Shown: positions 19,545-28,525 of the stretch, piece after piece | Numbering within the stretch: the stretch's first letter is position 1 | How the letters are laid out: the number at the start of each line of letters is the position of its first letter | Assembly: GCA_021776375.1 (NCBI GenBank) | Contig: JAJFGA010000031.1 | Coordinates: forward strand, 1 to 64,000 | Direction: 5' to 3' | DNA: 64,000 bases | Origin: Hyphococcus sp. | GTDB taxonomy: Bacteria > Pseudomonadota > Alphaproteobacteria > Caulobacterales > Parvularculaceae | Program-made: the position numbers and the translations under genes | Notes under the pieces: model-generated | What the model saw: the letters and a program-made list of their open reading frames with translations, nothing else | Told to the model about the DNA's origin: nothing | The model's database searches: none

Positions 19545-20147
19545 GTGTCCAACACAAAAGATAACCCGCGCGCCTGGCAGCGCATGCTGTCGGGACGCCG
19601 TCTTGATCTGCTTGACCCCTCCCCGGTCGATGTCGAGATCGAAGATGTCGCCCATGGCATCGCACGGGTTGCGAGATGGAATGGTCAGACATTGGGACCG
19701 TTGCCGTTTAACGTCGCGCAACATTCGCTCATCGTCGAAGAGTTTTGCGGCGAGATAAAACCCGGCTGGCCAGCAAAATGGCGGCTCGCGGCCCTCCTCC
19801 ATGACGGTCCGGAATTCGTCATCGGCGACATGATCTCGCCATTCAAGGCGCAATTGGGCGAGCGCTACAAAGTCATTGAGCGCCGGCTGCAGCAGGCGAT
19901 CCATCTGCGCTTCGGTCTGCCCGCGGACCTTCCCGAAACGGTTGAGAAAACCATCAAGCGCGCTGACCGCGCCAGCGCGTTTTTTGAAGCGACGCAACTT
20001 GCCGGCTTTGATTTCGCTGAGGCGCGCAAATTCTTTGGCGCGCCGCGCGGGGTAATGCCCATTGAGCTTAAAACCATGACTTCAAGCCAGGCCCAAGCCG
20101 CCTTTCTGGCGCGTTTCAAGGTGTTGATGAAAGCTTGCGAAGGTTAA
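19545..20147 (+). CDS. HD-domain phosphohydrolase (YfbR-like)
   Basis: A protein of 200 residues of the HD superfamily. The metal-binding residues are in FNVAQHSLIV (His), ALLHDGPEFVIGD (His-Asp) and IKRADRASAFFEA (Asp), the same arrangement as in YfbR-type 5'-nucleotidases and related hydrolases. The start is GTG, with only a weak ribosome site. Downstream in the same direction come a Cys-phosphatase, nadQ and the nad genes, so a role in nucleotide or NAD turnover is possible, but this is inference from position. The 218-bp space before it (19327-19544) holds no gene. It contains a GTTC-N5-GAAC palindrome at 19377-19389 of unknown meaning. Confidence 0.8.
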   Translation: MSNTKDNPRAWQRMLSGRRLDLLDPSPVDVEIEDVAHGIARVARWNGQTLGPLPFNVAQHSLIVEEFCGEIKPGWPAKWRLAALLHDGPEFVIGDMISPFKAQLGERYKVIERRLQQAIHLRFGLPADLPETVEKTIKRADRASAFFEATQLAGFDFAEARKFFGAPRGVMPIELKTMTSSQAQAAFLARFKVLMKACEG

Positions 20148-20224
20148 GAAAGACAACGAACAAGCCCGCAACTTCAAAACTACGTGATCGCCCGCCTGTT
20201 TGCCACACAAAGCAGCGAGGTCAT

Positions 20225-20253
20225 TTGTCTTTTGTTAACGACGCATCTATTTC
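20225..20253 (+). promoter_or_regulatory. Possible promoter for the phosphatase-nadQ unit
   Basis: TTGTCT and TATTTC are separated by 17 bases, ending about 35 bp before the ATG at 20290. Sequence match only. Confidence 0.4.
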
Positions 20254-20289
20254 AATAGAACACACCGAATGCGGAGAGCCTGAAGCCTG

Positions 20290-20805
20290 ATGATTATTGT
20301 CAGTTCACTCGATCACGCCGAGGCGGCGTATAAAAAATACGCGCCCGCCTATGTGATTTCGATTCTCGAAAAAGATGAGCCCACACCGCCGGTGTTTGAC
20401 GCTGTAGCGGAAAAAAACCACCTTAAGGTGATCGAAGATTGCAGCCGCGCATCTGATGTTGAAGATTGCGAGAGCCGGTGCATAAAACTCCTCACCCTGG
20501 CCGAGCGCTGGCGCAACGATCCCGAGCCTAAAGCGCCTATCCTTATTCATTGCCATAAGGGCGTGGCGCGCTCTATGGCGGTCGCTTATGTTTTGATGTG
20601 CGCTATTGAGCAAGGCAATTGCGAGAGAAAAATCGCAGACCGCCTGCGCGACGCCGCACCGCATGCCGACCCCAATCTGATGCTCGTTTCTGAAGCCGAT
20701 GCGCTGATGCAGCGCGACGACCGCATGATCGAGGCGATATTAGATCTCTGTCCGAGCTGTGCTGCGGTCGAAAAACCTGTCGTCACGCTTCCCGTTACGA
20801 TGTAA
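20290..20805 (+). CDS. Cysteine-based protein tyrosine phosphatase-like protein
   Basis: A protein of 171 residues of the dual-specificity/tyrosine phosphatase fold. The P-loop is HCHKGVARS, i.e. C-X5-R with Cys88 as nucleophile and Arg94 binding phosphate. A general-acid Asp may be in the DCSRASDVEDCE loop. It is small and has no targeting signal, so it should be cytoplasmic. The gene is followed 19 bp later by nadQ and preceded by an HD hydrolase. The substrate could be a protein or a small phosphorylated metabolite. The C-terminal part has a CPSC pair of unknown purpose. GAGAG lies ahead of the ATG. Confidence 0.8.
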   Translation: MIIVSSLDHAEAAYKKYAPAYVISILEKDEPTPPVFDAVAEKNHLKVIEDCSRASDVEDCESRCIKLLTLAERWRNDPEPKAPILIHCHKGVARSMAVAYVLMCAIEQGNCERKIADRLRDAAPHADPNLMLVSEADALMQRDDRMIEAILDLCPSCAAVEKPVVTLPVTM

Positions 20806-20824
20806 ATCGGCCATAGACGGCGGG

Positions 20825-21853
20825 ATGAGAAAACCGCACGCTTCAGCTTCTCGCCCAACCTCCCTGGCGACAAACGTCGCCATCGCCCTCAATGCCGTAT
20901 TGGCGGCGATTGATGATGGCCGCCCGAAAGTCCTGTGTGTCAGGGCCAACGAACTTGGCCTTCCCTATGGGCCGTTTGACCCGGCGCGCCACCGCACTTT
21001 TGAAATCGGGATGCGCGAATGGGTCGAGCGCCAGACCAAGATATCGCTCGGATTTATCGAACAGCTCTACACTTTCGGCGATGAAGGCCGCGAAGCCCCC
21101 GCCGCCGCGCTCATCGGTAGAAACGCCAGTGAACGCATCGTTTCGGTGGGCTATCTTGCACTCGCCCCAGGACCGACTGAGACCATTGCCGAAGATGCGG
21201 TCTGGCGCGACTGGTATGGGTTCTTTCCCTGGGAGGATTGGCGCGGCGGTGAACCTAAAATCCTCCGTGAGCACATCATACCCGGCCTGACCGATTGGGT
21301 CGAACGCGGCCGCGACAAATCGATCCGCAACGCCCGCCTCGCCCGTGTCAATGTCGCCTTCGGTCTTGACGGCATGGGCTGGGCCGAAGAGCGCACCCTT
21401 GACCGCTATGAGTTGATGTATGAGGCGAGACTTGTGGTCGAGGCTGGGCGCGACCGTGCCGCCGCCAGCCCTGACAGAGCCCTGTCCGCCAGCGAAACGG
21501 AGCTGCAACAGACCGGCGCGCCGATGATCTCCGACCACCGGCGCATTCTCGCAACCGCTATCGGGCGCCTGCGCGGCAAGCTGAAATACCGGCCGGTGAT
21601 TTTTGAAATGACGCCGCCGGAGTTTACCCTGCTGCAACTGCAACGCACCGTTGAGGCGATTGTCGGCTTTGGGTTTCACAAGCAGAATTTCCGCCGCACG
21701 ATCGAAAAATCAGGGTTTGTCGAACCCACTGGCGAGACGACCCAAGAGGCGGCCGGCAGGCCGGCGGCGCTGTTTCGCGTCGACCGCGAGGGCCTGCGAG
21801 CACGCACTGCCACGGGCCTGGCCATCCCACGATTGCGCCGCGCCAAGGATTAG
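20825..21853 (+). CDS. nadQ: NadQ-type regulator of NAD biosynthesis (Nudix-like plus winged helix)
   Basis: A protein of 342 residues built like NrtR/COG4111 regulators: an N-terminal Nudix-like sensor (about 20-170, with GFIEQLYTFGDEGRE, a hallmark of the NrtR group) and a C-terminal winged helix-turn-helix (YRPVIFEMTPPEFTLLQLQRTVEAIVGFGFHKQNFRRTIEKSGFV). The catalytic Nudix box is degenerate: the REUXEEXGU core is missing around GMREWVERQTKI, so it probably senses a ligand and does not hydrolyse one. In alphaproteobacteria this family is assigned to control of nadABC, and nadA, nadB and nadC lie just downstream. ATG 20825 is chosen, 19 bp after the phosphatase stop. The track start overlaps that gene. 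Confidence 0.82.
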   Translation: MRKPHASASRPTSLATNVAIALNAVLAAIDDGRPKVLCVRANELGLPYGPFDPARHRTFEIGMREWVERQTKISLGFIEQLYTFGDEGREAPAAALIGRNASERIVSVGYLALAPGPTETIAEDAVWRDWYGFFPWEDWRGGEPKILREHIIPGLTDWVERGRDKSIRNARLARVNVAFGLDGMGWAEERTLDRYELMYEARLVVEAGRDRAAASPDRALSASETELQQTGAPMISDHRRILATAIGRLRGKLKYRPVIFEMTPPEFTLLQLQRTVEAIVGFGFHKQNFRRTIEKSGFVEPTGETTQEAAGRPAALFRVDREGLRARTATGLAIPRLRRAKD

Positions 21854-21892
21854 ACAATGATGCGCGCCATAGTCATCAAGGGACTGCCATCG

Positions 21893-22732
21893 ATGAAAAA
21901 CCTGGTCGCATTATTCACAACAAGCGCCTTCCTCGTTTCAAGCAATGGGCTTTTCGGCGGCGCCATCGCACATGACAGCGCGACAGCGACTTACCTTGGC
22001 AATGAAGGTGTGATGATCGCACATGGTGAGACGAAAATTCTGTTCGATGCGTTCTATGCTGACGGCTTTGGACAATATGCACTCGTCCCGGCCCCTATCT
22101 CCGAGGCGATGATGAAGAATGCGCCACCCTATGACGGCGTCGATGCGATTTTTGTGAGCCATGTCCATGGCGACCATTTCACCGCTGAACTCGCCGTTTC
22201 CTATATGCGCGCCCACCCAAACGTTCGCCTTTATGGACCGCAGCAGGTGCATGACGCGATCGTCAATTCCGGCGTTGCCGATAACGATCCTCTGATGGCG
22301 CGCGTCTTCGGCTATGATCTTGACCCTGAGGATAGTGCGTTAGGTTTTGATGTTGACGAATTACAGATTGCCGCCGTCGCCATTCCCCATGCCGGCAACC
22401 GGCCGCACATTCAAAACTTCGCCTGGCGGGTCACCCTTGGCGAGGATACCACCATCATGCATCTCGGCGACGCCGGGCCGGTAGTGTCTGACTTCTCACG
22501 CCATATACAGCACTTCAAATCGCGCAAAACCAATACAGCGTTCCCGCCCTACTGGTTTTTTGGCGACAAAAATGGCGAAACAATCCTGCACGACATCATT
22601 GAAGCCGATCAGACGGTTGGCATTCATGTGCCGAAGCGGGCGGCGGGCCATGGAGATGAATGGCGCGCCCGTGTCAACGGAGATCTCTTCACCGACCCCG
22701 GCGAAACGCGTGAAATGATCGATAAGCAGTAG
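21893..22732 (+). CDS. Exported metallo-beta-lactamase-fold hydrolase
   Basis: A protein of 279 residues with a signal peptide (MKNLVALFTTSAFLVSSNGLFGGAIA) and an MBL fold. The zinc motif is FVSHVHGDHF, with further ligands likely in IPHAGNRPH and MHLGDAGPV. This is the UlaG-like/'Zn-dependent hydrolase' branch, not a beta-lactamase. ATG 21893 with AAGGGA upstream gives a clean signal peptide. The track start at 21857 would hide it. It follows nadQ by 39 bp and may be in the same transcript. The substrate is unknown. Confidence 0.8.
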   Translation: MKNLVALFTTSAFLVSSNGLFGGAIAHDSATATYLGNEGVMIAHGETKILFDAFYADGFGQYALVPAPISEAMMKNAPPYDGVDAIFVSHVHGDHFTAELAVSYMRAHPNVRLYGPQQVHDAIVNSGVADNDPLMARVFGYDLDPEDSALGFDVDELQIAAVAIPHAGNRPHIQNFAWRVTLGEDTTIMHLGDAGPVVSDFSRHIQHFKSRKTNTAFPPYWFFGDKNGETILHDIIEADQTVGIHVPKRAAGHGDEWRARVNGDLFTDPGETREMIDKQ

Positions 22733-22751: not shown

Positions 22752-23675
22752 ATGACAGCGGATTTTTCCAACGCGACAAGCCGCCCGCATGTGTTGGTCC
22801 TAGGGCGCGCGAAAACCGGAACCACTTTCATCGCCAAGTCGATCGAAGCTGCCTGTCCGGCGACGCCTACGCGCTTCATTATGGAACCCGCGATGCAGCA
22901 CGACATTAACCGGGCCGCAAAAGCATCAAACCGTTCAACCCTTATCATGAAAGTGTTATTTGATCATTGGGACAAGCAGCGTGATGCATTAAGCGAGCTT
23001 GCAACAGGACAATCACAGCCCAATTTCCATGCCCGAATCGCTATTGTGCGCGATCCACGCGACGAAATCATCAGCCGGATATTGTTCCGCCCGTTCAGTT
23101 TTCTCGTCAGCGGTCACGCTCGGGCCGAAGATATAGAGCGGTGGGCGAATGTTCTTGAGCACCGTGAAAAAAATCACGAAATGACTTTCCTTGAGGTGCA
23201 AAAGGCATTTGCGGCGACGTTTTCCGGCGCTAGCGATCCTGCGGACGAGATCCGCACTATTGCTCGCTTATGCATGGGATATGCAGATTATCTGAAACTA
23301 AATCAGACTGTTTTCACGACCCTGCGATATGAAGATGCCGTCGCAGATGATTTTTCTGCTATTGAGCCGGCGCTAGGCTGGCAAGTCTCCAAGACCCAAG
23401 ATCTTGGTCGCTTTGGCTACACAAAGCGCTCCGGTGCAGCAACAAACTGGGCGAAGTGGTTCCATCCTTCCGATCTTGAAACCATCAAAGACTTGATGGG
23501 ACCGGCCTGCGCGGAGCTGGGGTATTTCGATTGGACAACGCCAGCCGATATCGACCGCACCATCGAGCCTGAGCACCACTCGGAATATGCGCGCGGCCTG
23601 TTGCGTCAATATCGCCGGCAGGGCGGTGCGGCGCGTACCTTTATTCAACGCCTTCGAAGCCGGCTGTTTGCCTGA
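22752..23675 (+). CDS. Sulfotransferase-family protein
   Basis: A cytoplasmic protein of 307 residues using PAPS as likely sulfate donor. The 5'-phosphosulfate loop is VLGRAKTGTTFIAKSI at the N-terminus and the 3'-phosphate motif is IVRDPRDEIISRI near residue 100. The C-terminus WAKWFHPSDLETIKDLMGPACAELGYF is typical of the family's adenine-binding end. Acceptors in this group are often carbohydrates or lipids of the cell surface. It starts 19 bp after the MBL gene. A TPR-fused relative lies at 35062-36684. Confidence 0.82.
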   Translation: MTADFSNATSRPHVLVLGRAKTGTTFIAKSIEAACPATPTRFIMEPAMQHDINRAAKASNRSTLIMKVLFDHWDKQRDALSELATGQSQPNFHARIAIVRDPRDEIISRILFRPFSFLVSGHARAEDIERWANVLEHREKNHEMTFLEVQKAFAATFSGASDPADEIRTIARLCMGYADYLKLNQTVFTTLRYEDAVADDFSAIEPALGWQVSKTQDLGRFGYTKRSGAATNWAKWFHPSDLETIKDLMGPACAELGYFDWTTPADIDRTIEPEHHSEYARGLLRQYRRQGGAARTFIQRLRSRLFA

Positions 23676-23786: not shown

Positions 23787-23808
23787 GCCCCTTGCGGGGC
23801 AGTTTTTT
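23787..23808 (+). terminator. Terminator before nadA
   Basis: A compact GCCCC-TTGC-GGGGC hairpin followed by AGTTTTTT, about 110 bp after the sulfotransferase stop. It separates the upstream group from the nadA promoter. Confidence 0.75.
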
Positions 23809-23813
23809 AACCC

Positions 23814-23840
23814 TATATATGCTCTAGTTGAGCACATATG
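23814..23840 (+). promoter_or_regulatory. Candidate NadQ operator over the nadA promoter
   Basis: An inverted repeat TATATaTGCTC-TAGTT-GAGCAcATATg, with 5-bp perfect inner arms and AT-rich outer arms broken by one mismatch. The left arm includes a TATATA that can serve as -10, with TTGCGG 16 bases upstream as -35. It lies 41 bp before the nadA ATG. A dimeric winged-helix repressor bound here would block RNA polymerase. NadQ as the binder is inferred from family knowledge and the adjacent gene. Confidence 0.6.
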
Positions 23841-23880: not shown

Positions 23881-24984
23881 ATGGCTGATTTTGGCGGCGA
23901 ACCGACGACACAAACATCACTGCCTTATACAGATGCGGTGAAGGCGAAAACCGACCATCTTTATGCAAAGGTCGCGAAAGTTATTCCTGAACTCGAATGG
24001 CGGCTGCATGCGCCCTATATCGCGGCGATCAACGATCTCAAGAAACAGAAAAACGCGGTCATCCTGGCGCACAATTATATGACGCCGGAAATTTTCAACT
24101 GCGTCGGCGACTTTGCAGGTGACAGTCTGCAGCTCGCCAAGGAAGCGGCCAATACCGATGCGGACATTATCGTCCAGGCCGGTGTCCACTTCATGGCCGA
24201 AACATCGAAAATTCTGTGCCCGGACAAAACCGTCCTGATCCCGGATAAGGATGCTGGCTGCTCCCTCGCCGCCTCGCTCACCGGCGCTGATGTGCGATTG
24301 TTAAAACAACGCTATCCGGGCGCGCCCGTCGTCACCTATGTCAACACCACTGCCGATGTTAAAGCCGAGACCGACATCTGCTGCACTTCCTCCAACGCGG
24401 TCGAAGTGGTGGAACACGCTGCGTGCGAATTTAATTCCGACACGGTGATTTTAATTCCCGATCAGTATCTCGCCAAAAATGTCGCGGCGATGACCGATAT
24501 CAAAATCGTCACCTGGGCCGGCGCTTGCGAGGTGCATGAACGCTTTACCGCCGACGATATTCGTGAAATCCGCGAGGGTAATCCCGGCGTCATTGTGCTG
24601 GCGCATCCGGAATGTCCGCCGGACGTGCTCGCCGAAGCTGATTTCGCCGGTTCAACCAGCGGCATAAGCGATTACGTCAAGACGAACCAGCCCGAGCTGG
24701 TGGTTTTGATCACCGAATGCTCGATGTCGGATAATGTGGCGCTGGAAAACCCCAATGTGAAATTCGTGCGGCCGTGCAATCTGTGCCCTTATATGAAGCG
24801 GATCACACTGCCGAAAATTCTCCACGCGCTGCAAACCATGGAACATGAAGTTAAAATCGACGCTGACATCATCGAAAAAGCGCGGGCGCCAATTGAACGC
24901 ATGATGGCGCTGACTTTAACAAAACAGTCGATGTACACTCATGAACGCCCGCCGGAAGTGATGGCGATTGAGGCAAGAGCTTAA
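23881..24984 (+). CDS. nadA: Quinolinate synthase
   Basis: A 367-residue [4Fe-4S] enzyme that condenses iminoaspartate with dihydroxyacetone phosphate to quinolinate, the second step of de novo NAD synthesis. The three cluster cysteines are visible in [23 protein letters not shown] and [38 protein letters not shown] marks the substrate site. ATG 23881 has GGAGG 7 bases upstream, and the 49 extra codons in the track ORF run through the operator and terminator and are not translated. The partner NadB lies 1.15 kb downstream, with a propeller-protein gene between them. Confidence 0.95.
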
Positions 24985-25113
24985 GCACGTTGGTTGTGCA
25001 AAGCTTCCAATATAGGATAAGAAGCATCTCCTATGGGCATACGGATATCAACTTCTTATGCGTCCAGACTGATGCGCCAATTGCAGTTTCTTTACCGGAA
25101 CATCGGTAAAATC

Positions 25114-26040
25114 ATGAAAAGTGCATGGTTGGCCGCAACGGTGTTTCTTGTGGGTGCATGCTTCCCTAGCGTGAGCTATAGCTCTGAAAAAACCGTCTTG
25201 TCCGCCTCAACTGCCCACCCAGAATGGAGACCGGATGGTTCGCGCCTGCTAGTTGCGCATGCTGAGCCCGGAGCATTGGAGAAAATCGTCGAAATTGGTC
25301 TGGATGGAGCCGTGCTATCGCAATTCAACTTTTCTAACTGGCGAGAAACCTACCCTGCCTATTCACCGAATCAAAATGCTTTCGCCTTCATTACTCTGAT
25401 CCGGGACGGTGAAAAAGCGCCGCGTTTTACGATATCAGTTTATGATTTCCGAAGTGAAACATCAAAAGTGATCGTTAACAATGGTAGCACGTATGAACCG
25501 AGATTTTCACCCGACGGAAGCAAACTGGCTTATACTGTTGCACGCGACGATGGCCGCGGCATTGCTATACTGGATCTGGTAACAATGAAAGAATCCTGGC
25601 TTTATAAAAACAACAGTGCCGGATTTCCTTCATGGTCTCCGGACGGCGAAACCGTGATCTTCAATCAGAAAAACTCACGCGGTTTTTTTGAAATTGCCGA
25701 ACTCAGCTTAAGAACTGGGAACATCAAACCTGTCGTTAAATCTTCTGGCAATAGCTACTATGGCCACTATGCGCCAAATGGAAACGCTATTGTTTACATG
25801 TCCGATAAAACTAACCCCGGAGAAAGGAATGCTCGAGAAATATACGTGAAATCCATATCCGACAACTCAACCCGTCGGCTAACAAACAATCAGCATCGCG
25901 ACGGTTATCCGAAATGGAGCCCGGACGGAACAAAAATCGCATGGCATTCAGGGCAAACTGACGCCTTCAAAATTGCGATCATGGAATTGGCGTCAGGTGA
26001 AACCAGATATGTCTCCCCAAGAATTTCAGATCCCAAGTAA
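25114..26040 (+). CDS. TolB-like WD40/PD40 beta-propeller protein, probable lipoprotein
   Basis: A protein of about 308 residues with repeated PD40 blades: HPEWRPDGSRLL, YEPRFSPDGSKLAYT, FPSWSPDGETVIF, YPKWSPDGTKIAWHS. The N-terminus MKSAWLAATVFLVGACF is a signal peptide that could be lipid-modified at the Cys (VGAC). The start could also be further upstream at 25033, as neither has a good ribosome site. It lacks the TolB N-terminal domain and is not near tol-pal genes. Codon use is visibly more AT-rich than its neighbours (many AAA, ATT, TCT), and it splits nadA from nadB, both signs of a later insertion. Role unknown. Confidence 0.7.
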   Translation: MKSAWLAATVFLVGACFPSVSYSSEKTVLSASTAHPEWRPDGSRLLVAHAEPGALEKIVEIGLDGAVLSQFNFSNWRETYPAYSPNQNAFAFITLIRDGEKAPRFTISVYDFRSETSKVIVNNGSTYEPRFSPDGSKLAYTVARDDGRGIAILDLVTMKESWLYKNNSAGFPSWSPDGETVIFNQKNSRGFFEIAELSLRTGNIKPVVKSSGNSYYGHYAPNGNAIVYMSDKTNPGERNAREIYVKSISDNSTRRLTNNQHRDGYPKWSPDGTKIAWHSGQTDAFKIAIMELASGETRYVSPRISDPK

Positions 26041-26138: not shown

Positions 26139-27680
26139 GTGCGATCAGACATCCTCATTATCGGCGCCGGCGTGGCGGGGCTTTATACCGCTCTGAAGCT
26201 CAGCCCCCGGCCGGTAACCATCATCACCGCGCGCCCGCTCGGCGAAGGCGGCGCGACGCCGTGGGCGCAGGGCGGCATGGCCGCCGCGATTGGTGATGAC
26301 GACACGCCTAACCTGCATTTCGCCGACACGATGGAGGCCGGCGGCGGACTGGTTGACCCCGAGGCCGCAAGCCTGCTTGTCGATGGCGGCGCGGCGGCGG
26401 TGGAAAATCTTGCCCACTATGGCGTTGAATTTGACCGTGATGCAGACGGCGCCCTGAAGCTCGGGCGCGAGGCAGCTCATTGCCGCAATCGCATCGTTCA
26501 CGCCGCCGGCGACCAGGCCGGCGCCGCGATCATGGCGGCGCTGATTGCCGCTGCGCGCGCAGCAAAACACATCACCATTCTCGAGCGCATCGTCGTTGAA
26601 GATCTGCTGACGGATGATAATGGCGCCGTCGGCGGCGCTCTGGTTTATGATGTCGAGGCCGGCCAACGCGCCGTCTTTGACGCGGCGGAAACCGTGATGG
26701 CGACCGGCGGGCTTGGCGGACTTTACGCCGTCACCACCAACCCGACCCCGGCGCAGGGCCATGGCCTTGCTTTCGCGGCGCGCGCCGGCGCGATTATCCG
26801 CGATCCGGAATTTGTCCAGTTCCACCCTACCGCGCTTGATATTGGCGCCGACCCCGCCCCGCTCGCCACCGAAGCGCTGCGCGGCGCCGGCGCGTTGCTC
26901 GTCAACACCGACGGGAAAAGGTTCATGGAGGACTATCATAAGTCACTGGAGCTAGCGCCCCGGGACATTGTCGCGCGCGCGGTAGAGGCGGAGATAGTCG
27001 CCGGCCGCGGCGCTTTCCTCGATGCGCGCGAGGCAATCGGCGCAAGTTTCCCTGAACGCTTCCCCACCGTCTTTGCTTCCTGCCAGAAAGTCCGCATCGA
27101 TCCGCGAACGCAGGTGATGCCGGTCGCCCCGGCCGCGCATTATCACATGGGCGGCGTCGCTACGGACCTTAACGGCCAGTCCTCTGTCGATGGATTGTGG
27201 GCGGTGGGCGAGGTCGCCTCCACCGGCGTACACGGCGCCAATCGCCTCGCCTCCAACTCTCTGCTTGAGGCGGTGGTCTTCGGCGCCCGCATCGCCGATC
27301 AGCTCCGTGACAAGGAAGTGACACCGCCAGTAGAGCCCGGCGCCCCGGCAGACCGTATGGACCTTGCGTCAAAACCCGCTGACCCCGACGCAATGGCGCG
27401 CCTGCGCAGTAAAATGTCGGAGGGCTGCGCGCTCAATCGCTCACGGGAAGGCCTGTTGCAGGTTATCGATGTCATTCACGCGCTCAATATCAGCCCGTTC
27501 ATGACCAGCGGTCTGAAAAGCGCGCTCATCACTGCAGAGCTAATCGCGCAAGGCGCGCTGATGCGCGAGGAATCGCGCGGCGGACATTTCCGGACCGACT
27601 ATCCGGAGACGGATGAAGAGGCGTTTAATACGGAAATCTGCACCACTGCCGCCTATGAGGAAGGTGAGGACCCGGAATGA
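26139..27680 (+). CDS. nadB: L-aspartate oxidase
   Basis: A 513-residue flavoprotein that oxidises L-aspartate to iminoaspartate for NadA. It has the FAD dinucleotide motif IGAGVAGLYTALKL at the N-terminus, the conserved GGMAAAIG, FVQFHPTAL and YHMGGVATDLNG...VGEVASTGVHGANRLASNSLLEAVVFG of the succinate dehydrogenase/fumarate reductase flavoprotein family, and the shorter C-terminal helical domain typical of NadB. The start is GTG with GAGGTAG upstream. It overlaps nadC by an ATGA, so the two are translationally coupled. Confidence 0.94.
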   Translation: MRSDILIIGAGVAGLYTALKLSPRPVTIITARPLGEGGATPWAQGGMAAAIGDDDTPNLHFADTMEAGGGLVDPEAASLLVDGGAAAVENLAHYGVEFDRDADGALKLGREAAHCRNRIVHAAGDQAGAAIMAALIAAARAAKHITILERIVVEDLLTDDNGAVGGALVYDVEAGQRAVFDAAETVMATGGLGGLYAVTTNPTPAQGHGLAFAARAGAIIRDPEFVQFHPTALDIGADPAPLATEALRGAGALLVNTDGKRFMEDYHKSLELAPRDIVARAVEAEIVAGRGAFLDAREAIGASFPERFPTVFASCQKVRIDPRTQVMPVAPAAHYHMGGVATDLNGQSSVDGLWAVGEVASTGVHGANRLASNSLLEAVVFGARIADQLRDKEVTPPVEPGAPADRMDLASKPADPDAMARLRSKMSEGCALNRSREGLLQVIDVIHALNISPFMTSGLKSALITAELIAQGALMREESRGGHFRTDYPETDEEAFNTEICTTAAYEEGEDPE

Positions 27681-28525
27681 AATTGCCGCGCCTCGCCCCC
27701 CATGTGGTTGACGACGCGGTCGCGCGCGCGCTGCGCGAAGATCTCGGCGACGCCGGCGACATTACTTCCAATGCGACCATACCCGCCAGCGCTACGTCGC
27801 GCGCCGTCATTGCCGCGCGCAAGCCCGGCGTAATTGCCGGCGTTGACACCGTGTGCGCCGCCTTCCGCCAGGTCGATCCGGCAATCCAGATCGCCGTCGA
27901 GGCTGGCGATGGTGCACGGGTTGAAAAAGGCGATCCCCTGTTCTCGCTTGAAGGCCCATCGCGCGGCATTCTTTCCGCCGAACGTGTCGCGCTGAACTTT
28001 CTCGGTCATCTCTCCGGCGTCGCTACCGCAACCGCCGCCCTGGTGGACGCCGTCGCCGAGACCAAGGCGCAAATTGTCTGCACCCGCAAGACCACCCCCG
28101 GCCTGCGCGCACTAGAAAAATACGCGGCCTTATGTGGCGGCGGGCGCAACCATCGTTTCGGGCTTTATGATGCGGTGATGATTAAGGACAATCACATCGC
28201 AGCGGCCGGCGGCATCACTTCCGCCCTCGCCGCAGCAAAATCTGCAATCGGGCATATGGTCAAGGTCGAGATTGAAATTGACCGCCTAGACCAGCTGGAA
28301 GCCGCTATCGCAGGCGGCGCTGACGTTATCTTGCTGGATAATATGTCTACAGAGGATATGAAACAAGCGGTCGATATCAATCAAGCCCGCACCGTCCTCG
28401 AAGCGTCCGGCAACGTCACCGTCAAAACCGTCCGCGCGATTGCGGAAACCGGCGTTGACGTTATTTCTTCCGGCTGGATCACGCACTCCGCGCCAAGCCT
28501 TGATGTTGGACTGGATTTTAAATGA
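27677..28525 (+). CDS. nadC: Nicotinate-nucleotide pyrophosphorylase (carboxylating)
   Basis: A 282-residue enzyme that converts quinolinate and PRPP to nicotinate mononucleotide, CO2 and pyrophosphate, closing the de novo branch begun by NadB and NadA. Signatures are REDLGDAGDITS near the N-terminus, ERVALNFLGHLSGVATAT, TRKTTPGLRALEKYA, YDAVMIKDNHIAAAGG and the late VDVISSGWITHSAPSLDVGLDF. The start overlaps the nadB stop (ATGA) and its own stop overlaps the next start the same way, so three genes are tightly coupled. Confidence 0.95.
   Translation: MKLPRLAPHVVDDAVARALREDLGDAGDITSNATIPASATSRAVIAARKPGVIAGVDTVCAAFRQVDPAIQIAVEAGDGARVEKGDPLFSLEGPSRGILSAERVALNFLGHLSGVATATAALVDAVAETKAQIVCTRKTTPGLRALEKYAALCGGGRNHRFGLYDAVMIKDNHIAAAGGITSALAAAKSAIGHMVKVEIEIDRLDQLEAAIAGGADVILLDNMSTEDMKQAVDINQARTVLEASGNVTVKTVRAIAETGVDVISSGWITHSAPSLDVGLDFK

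Follow-up and report, generated by a model that had tools for sequence, protein, structure and literature searches.

NadQ repressors of the Agrobacterium type (COG4111, PDB 7q91; regulon PMC5343134) combine an NrtR-type winged helix with a degenerate Nudix-like N-terminal part, have nadABC as neighbours and act at a palindromic operator with a published consensus, ttATRCTCannntGAGYATaa (PMC5343134). The title of Minazzato et al. (2022), cited in PMC11452294, describes NadQ as ATP-responsive. Among HD-domain phosphohydrolases the closest relative of the one studied here is Atu1052 from Agrobacterium (PDB 2gz4), a protein of unknown function whose structure entered the PDB in 2006; the literature searched yielded no paper that assigns it a role. 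DatZ, a dATPase with the same fold, has H34, H66, D67 and D119 as its metal ligands, an arginine (R19) that stabilizes the alpha-phosphate and a tryptophan (W20) that hinders the ribose 2′-hydroxyl (PMC8065100). A literature search on COG5350 gave one phosphatome survey only.

All three types of protein are encoded in a row in the window, which is a 64,000-nucleotide stretch of contig JAJFGA010000031.1 from Hyphococcus sp. The initial annotation had placed this row ahead of the nad genes and read it as a possible NAD-linked signalling unit. The features of the locus are:

19545 to 20147, + strand: HD-domain phosphohydrolase, Atu1052/YfbR-like group (Pfam families, PDB 2gz4, invariant residues), called HD below
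20148 to 20289, + strand: 142-bp gap between HD and phosphatase, with a T-rich, partly conserved block that is a weak candidate for a separate promoter
20290 to 20805, + strand: small dual-specificity-like Cys phosphatase, HCX5RS (signature, conserved residues, model fold)
20759 to 21853, + strand: nadQ, repressor of NAD synthesis, COG4111 (PDB 7q91 match, NrtR_WHD, 48 orthologues aligned)
21857 to 22732, + strand: hydrolase with a metallo-beta-lactamase fold, located between nadQ and nadA (among relatives, detected in the closest ones only)
22752 to 23675, + strand: sulfotransferase-like protein (weak), likewise between nadQ and nadA (among relatives, detected in the closest ones only)
23787 to 23800, + strand: stem of an intrinsic terminator, GCCCCTTGCGGGGC then AGTTTTTT (conserved in Marinicaulis relatives)
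23817 to 23837, + strand: NadQ operator, ATATGCTCTAGTTGAGCACAT (the window's only site of at least 10 bits)
23881 to 24984, + strand: nadA, quinolinate synthase (the listed ORF begins at TTG 23734)
26139 to 27680, + strand: nadB, L-aspartate oxidase
27677 to 28525, + strand: nadC, quinolinate phosphoribosyltransferase (own sequence, place after nadB, conserved position in relatives)

The ATG at 20825 is a more likely start for nadQ than the GTG at 20759, and nadA most likely starts at the ATG at 23881 since the TTG-extended ORF would run through the NadQ box. A consensus sigma-70 site was looked for in the 142-bp gap and none was found. The three genes do lie in a row, but two unrelated genes (for the metallo-hydrolase and the weakly matched sulfotransferase) separate nadQ from nadA in the window, so the trio is ahead of the nad genes and not directly joined to them. 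A TolB-like beta-propeller gene (25033–26040) lies between nadA and nadB and is not in that place in the relative L035.

The regulator of the window is a NadQ of the known type with near full-length homology, matching PDB 7q91 (‘NADQ transcription factor’) at E 5e-72 over residues 43–360 and NrtR_WHD (PF21906) at E 8e-20 over residues 282–340. When the Nudix signature Gx5Ex7REUxEExGU is read onto GPFDPARHRTFEIGMREWVERQT (residues 71–93), His stands in place of the first Glu and Arg in place of the second Glu in the EE pair, so the site is degenerate as had been proposed. Like the members of the known regulon (PMC5343134) it has a consensus operator at nadA and nadABC as neighbours; no feature distinguishing it from known NadQ was found, and its own gene lacks an operator in the window. 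If NadQ senses ATP, as the title mentioned above has it, no dedicated enzyme is needed to provide its ligand and the proposed unit loses its chief rationale. One nadQ match elsewhere (locus L059, genome G211) contains three in-frame stop codons (two TGA, one TAA) and is likely a decaying copy.

Operators were sought in two ways, by the published consensus and by a matrix derived from the regions upstream of nadA in 37 loci. Near the trio the consensus scan gave a single close match, ATGCTCTAGTTGAGCAC at 23819, a short way upstream of the probable start of nadA (23881); the operator (23817–23837) has one mismatch in its core. A NadQ box with at most two mismatches precedes nadA in 37/37 loci with a collinear nadA downstream, a count that is partly by construction as nadA sites served to train the matrix, which is not true of the absence of sites at HD. 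No site of at least 15 bits was found by the matrix before HD or the phosphatase gene in 33 linked loci, nor any of at least 10 bits elsewhere in the window beyond the nadA operator (shuffled windows gave 0 sites of 15 bits). Control of HD or the phosphatase gene by NadQ was rejected on the strength of these two scans. Sites of at least 15 bits lie solely before nadA, apart from L107 and L117, two loci of one family, where a weak box (19.9 bits) lies a little upstream of nadQ, some 150 bases ahead of the NadQ match, and might indicate autoregulation. Two tandem boxes precede nadA in L078, L081, L083, L085, L094, L098, L106, L108, L109, L116 and others, mostly 52–71 bp apart and often with TAATGCTCAAATGTAGCATAA as the distal box, in which the second half-site is altered; this points to repression through two sites or by looping in many alphaproteobacteria. 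In L092 nadQ is divergent from nadA and two boxes lie in the common intergenic region.

Directly before the nadA operator, in the region 23787–23837, is a terminator-like stem (GCCCCTTGCGGGGC followed by a T-rich stretch) that is kept in six of seven close relatives (L032–L037, slightly altered in L037). The number of terminator-like matches in the region overall (10 versus 7.4 in shuffles) is not clearly higher than expected, so the case for this stem rests on its conservation and its position before nadA. As the operator is at nadA with none at HD or the phosphatase gene, and the stem lies between the two groups of genes, the trio seems to be transcribed separately from the nad genes in the window.

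The HD protein (200 aa) matched PF12917 (YfbR-like) and PF01966 in a family scan and Atu1052 at E 7e-70, with 57–58% identity over nearly the full length and the same fold; structure comparison gave Atu1052, OxsA, DatZ and YfbR as its fold neighbours. The metal ligands of the H, HD, D pattern (H60, H86, D87 and D141) and the catalytic Glu (E90) are all present and, together with R44, W45 and K138, are invariant in 60 orthologues whether linked to NadQ or not. The Arg-Trp pair R44-W45, which precedes the first metal His, aligns in a PDB profile search with the RW of OxsA, and the HD-E-GD-P-K block aligns with YfbR; the YfbR profile alignment falls short of the RW segment, so the RW correspondence is with OxsA. 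Likeness to YfbR, OxsA and DatZ thus lies in the metal site, the Arg-Trp pair at the nucleotide pocket and the fold (15–20% identity), whereas HD is set apart from them by PRAWQRMLSGRRLDLLDPSP, an N-terminal segment that hardly varies within the alphaproteobacterial group. HD falls in this deoxynucleotide group, and by analogy a preference for deoxynucleotides is predicted. NMN, NaMN, NAD and ADP-ribose would be unlikely substrates because all carry 2′-OH riboses, the tryptophan argument being an analogy with distant relatives at 15–20% identity. A PHROG match (‘deoxyribonucleoside 5′ monophosphate phosphatase’, E 4e-39) and relatives in 197 phage records are consistent with HD being a nucleotide-pool enzyme. 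A MESH1/SpoT-like NADPH or ppGpp hydrolase was considered and rejected, since such structures match at no better than E ~0.6, well short of OxsA and DatZ.

The phosphatase (171 aa) carries the signature HCHKGVARS, with a sub-threshold match to Y_phosphatase in the family scan. The loop residues H87, C88, R94 and S95 are invariant among orthologues, as are D50 and N129, D137 being near-invariant, and the active site is intact. The structure model (mean pLDDT 88) has a DUSP-like fold whose best PDB fold matches are DUSPs at TM 0.5–0.6, and it puts D50, a candidate general acid, on a loop before helix 54–76. The protein shares its HCX5RS loop and fold with DUSP15, DUSP8 and baculovirus PTP-2 but differs from them in belonging to an alphaproteobacterial family of its own, with 13–19% identity (the PDB profile search used an alignment of 19 rows, one of them with a single wrong residue, which is not expected to alter the outcome). 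Both hydrolases were correctly recognized at the outset as a YfbR-like HD protein and a C-X5-R phosphatase, and no assigned role in NAD control was found for either in the literature searched.

It had further been suggested that NMN, NaMN, ADP-ribose or phosphorylated derivatives are substrates of these two enzymes, which would in this way make or remove the ligand of NadQ. The adjacency with nadQ and nadABC is conserved and both enzymes have intact active sites, as such a model would need, but the effector reported for NadQ is ATP, the NadQ operators are at nadA only and the Trp of HD that would select for deoxyribose is invariant. Nor do the genes always occur together, HD being undetected in 16/57 genomes with NadQ and the phosphatase in 10/26 linked loci. 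We therefore regard ligand processing as highly improbable.

Conservation of the gene order was surveyed in 240 alphaproteobacterial genomes drawn from across the class. Of these, 69 have HD (a few weak matches being left out), 43 the phosphatase and 57 NadQ, and 41/240 genomes have both HD and nadQ. In 26 of these 41, from 16 families, HD lies upstream of nadQ on one strand and within 3.5 kb, so the adjacency is not restricted to the window's genome, nor an accident of it. The phosphatase gene is between the two in 16 of the 26 linked genomes; in the remaining 10 nadQ follows HD directly and the phosphatase search gave no hit at E 1e-3, and the phosphatase was therefore rejected as an obligatory part, although a very diverged copy might lie elsewhere in these genomes. 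Adjacency of HD and nadQ is far above chance, and the co-occurrence of the two proteins has a Fisher p of 3e-15 (genomes counted as independent, kinship ignored). On the HD tree the linkage label needs 7 changes, compared with 18.9 when shuffled, so linkage clusters on the tree and has been inherited, with gains or losses along the way. HD without a detected NadQ was seen in 28 of its 69 genomes, and where nadQ is not beside HD no recurrent other partner was found in the HD neighbourhoods of the surveyed genomes.

The neighbourhoods (up to 20 kb around NadQ, HD or phosphatase at 80 places, with neighbour names read from sequences) have a conserved order of pyrC (divergent), ygfZ, tag, fabH-like, sometimes a universal stress protein gene, HD, phosphatase, nadQ, nadA, nadB and nadC, from which members drop out singly across loci. 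Thus L097 has ygfZ-tag-fabH-nadQ-nadABC without HD, L152 has ygfZ-tag-phosphatase, and in L142 (ygfZ-HD-nadABC) HD is directly before nadABC in a genome (84% complete) in which NadQ was not detected. The products of tag and ygfZ have no role in NAD metabolism. As the string reaches these genes and HD occurs in 28 genomes without a detected NadQ, an NAD-linked signalling unit as originally proposed is unlikely.

The same string raises the question of whether nadQ is a bystander at its end and HD works instead with Tag (3-methyladenine glycosylase) and YgfZ in a block for nucleotide or nucleic-acid maintenance. The order ygfZ-tag-(fabH-like)-HD recurs and tag is within 6 kb of HD in about 12 genomes; however, linkage within this distance is weaker for tag (~12/57) and ygfZ (~14/60) than for nadQ (26/41), the tag and ygfZ counts being approximate as a few positions came from neighbourhood maps or placeholders. 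In the window's own genome, moreover, tag and ygfZ are on other contigs, and we consider a maintenance block improbable.

The tight HD–nadQ linkage, their co-occurrence and the arrangement in L142 hint at some functional pull toward the NAD genes. A looser metabolic coupling would be one form of this, with HD trimming adenine (deoxy)nucleotide pools and forming one adenylate–NAD balance module with an ATP-sensing NadQ without making a specific ligand. It would be in keeping with the ATP response of NadQ named in the title of Minazzato et al. (2022), with HD being more tightly linked to nadQ than to its other neighbours and with the dATPase activity of DatZ, but HD has no NadQ operator, it also occurs in phages and in the genomes without a detected NadQ, and its invariant Trp predicts, by analogy, that ATP and AMP are poor substrates. 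Such coupling is rather unlikely. A more specific version, in which HD, phosphatase and NadQ form a previously undescribed adenylate/NAD homeostasis module and HD reduces the level of an adenine nucleotide competing with ATP for NadQ, is a doubtful proposition; if it were true, HD would set how strongly NAD synthesis is repressed.

The reading we prefer, with a probability of roughly 0.6, is that of an ancestral alphaproteobacterial nadQ–nadABC locus, with a pair of ordinary phosphohydrolase genes lying immediately ahead of the repressor gene. NadQ would be an ATP-responsive repressor acting on the single nadA operator, HD a metal-dependent phosphohydrolase of the YfbR/DatZ type that acts on 5′-deoxynucleotides and the small phosphatase a DUSP-fold enzyme. 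The two hydrolase genes are probably expressed with nadQ in a unit that ends before nadA, and their products would neither make nor destroy the NadQ ligand.

The HD-(phosphatase)-nadQ gene order may not have been described so far, and it is a robust and widely conserved order beside a central cofactor pathway. A vague connection with NAD is replaced by the sharper prediction that HD acts on deoxynucleotides and is indifferent to NadQ; should HD not be indifferent, control of nucleotide pools would be tied to NAD repression in alphaproteobacteria.
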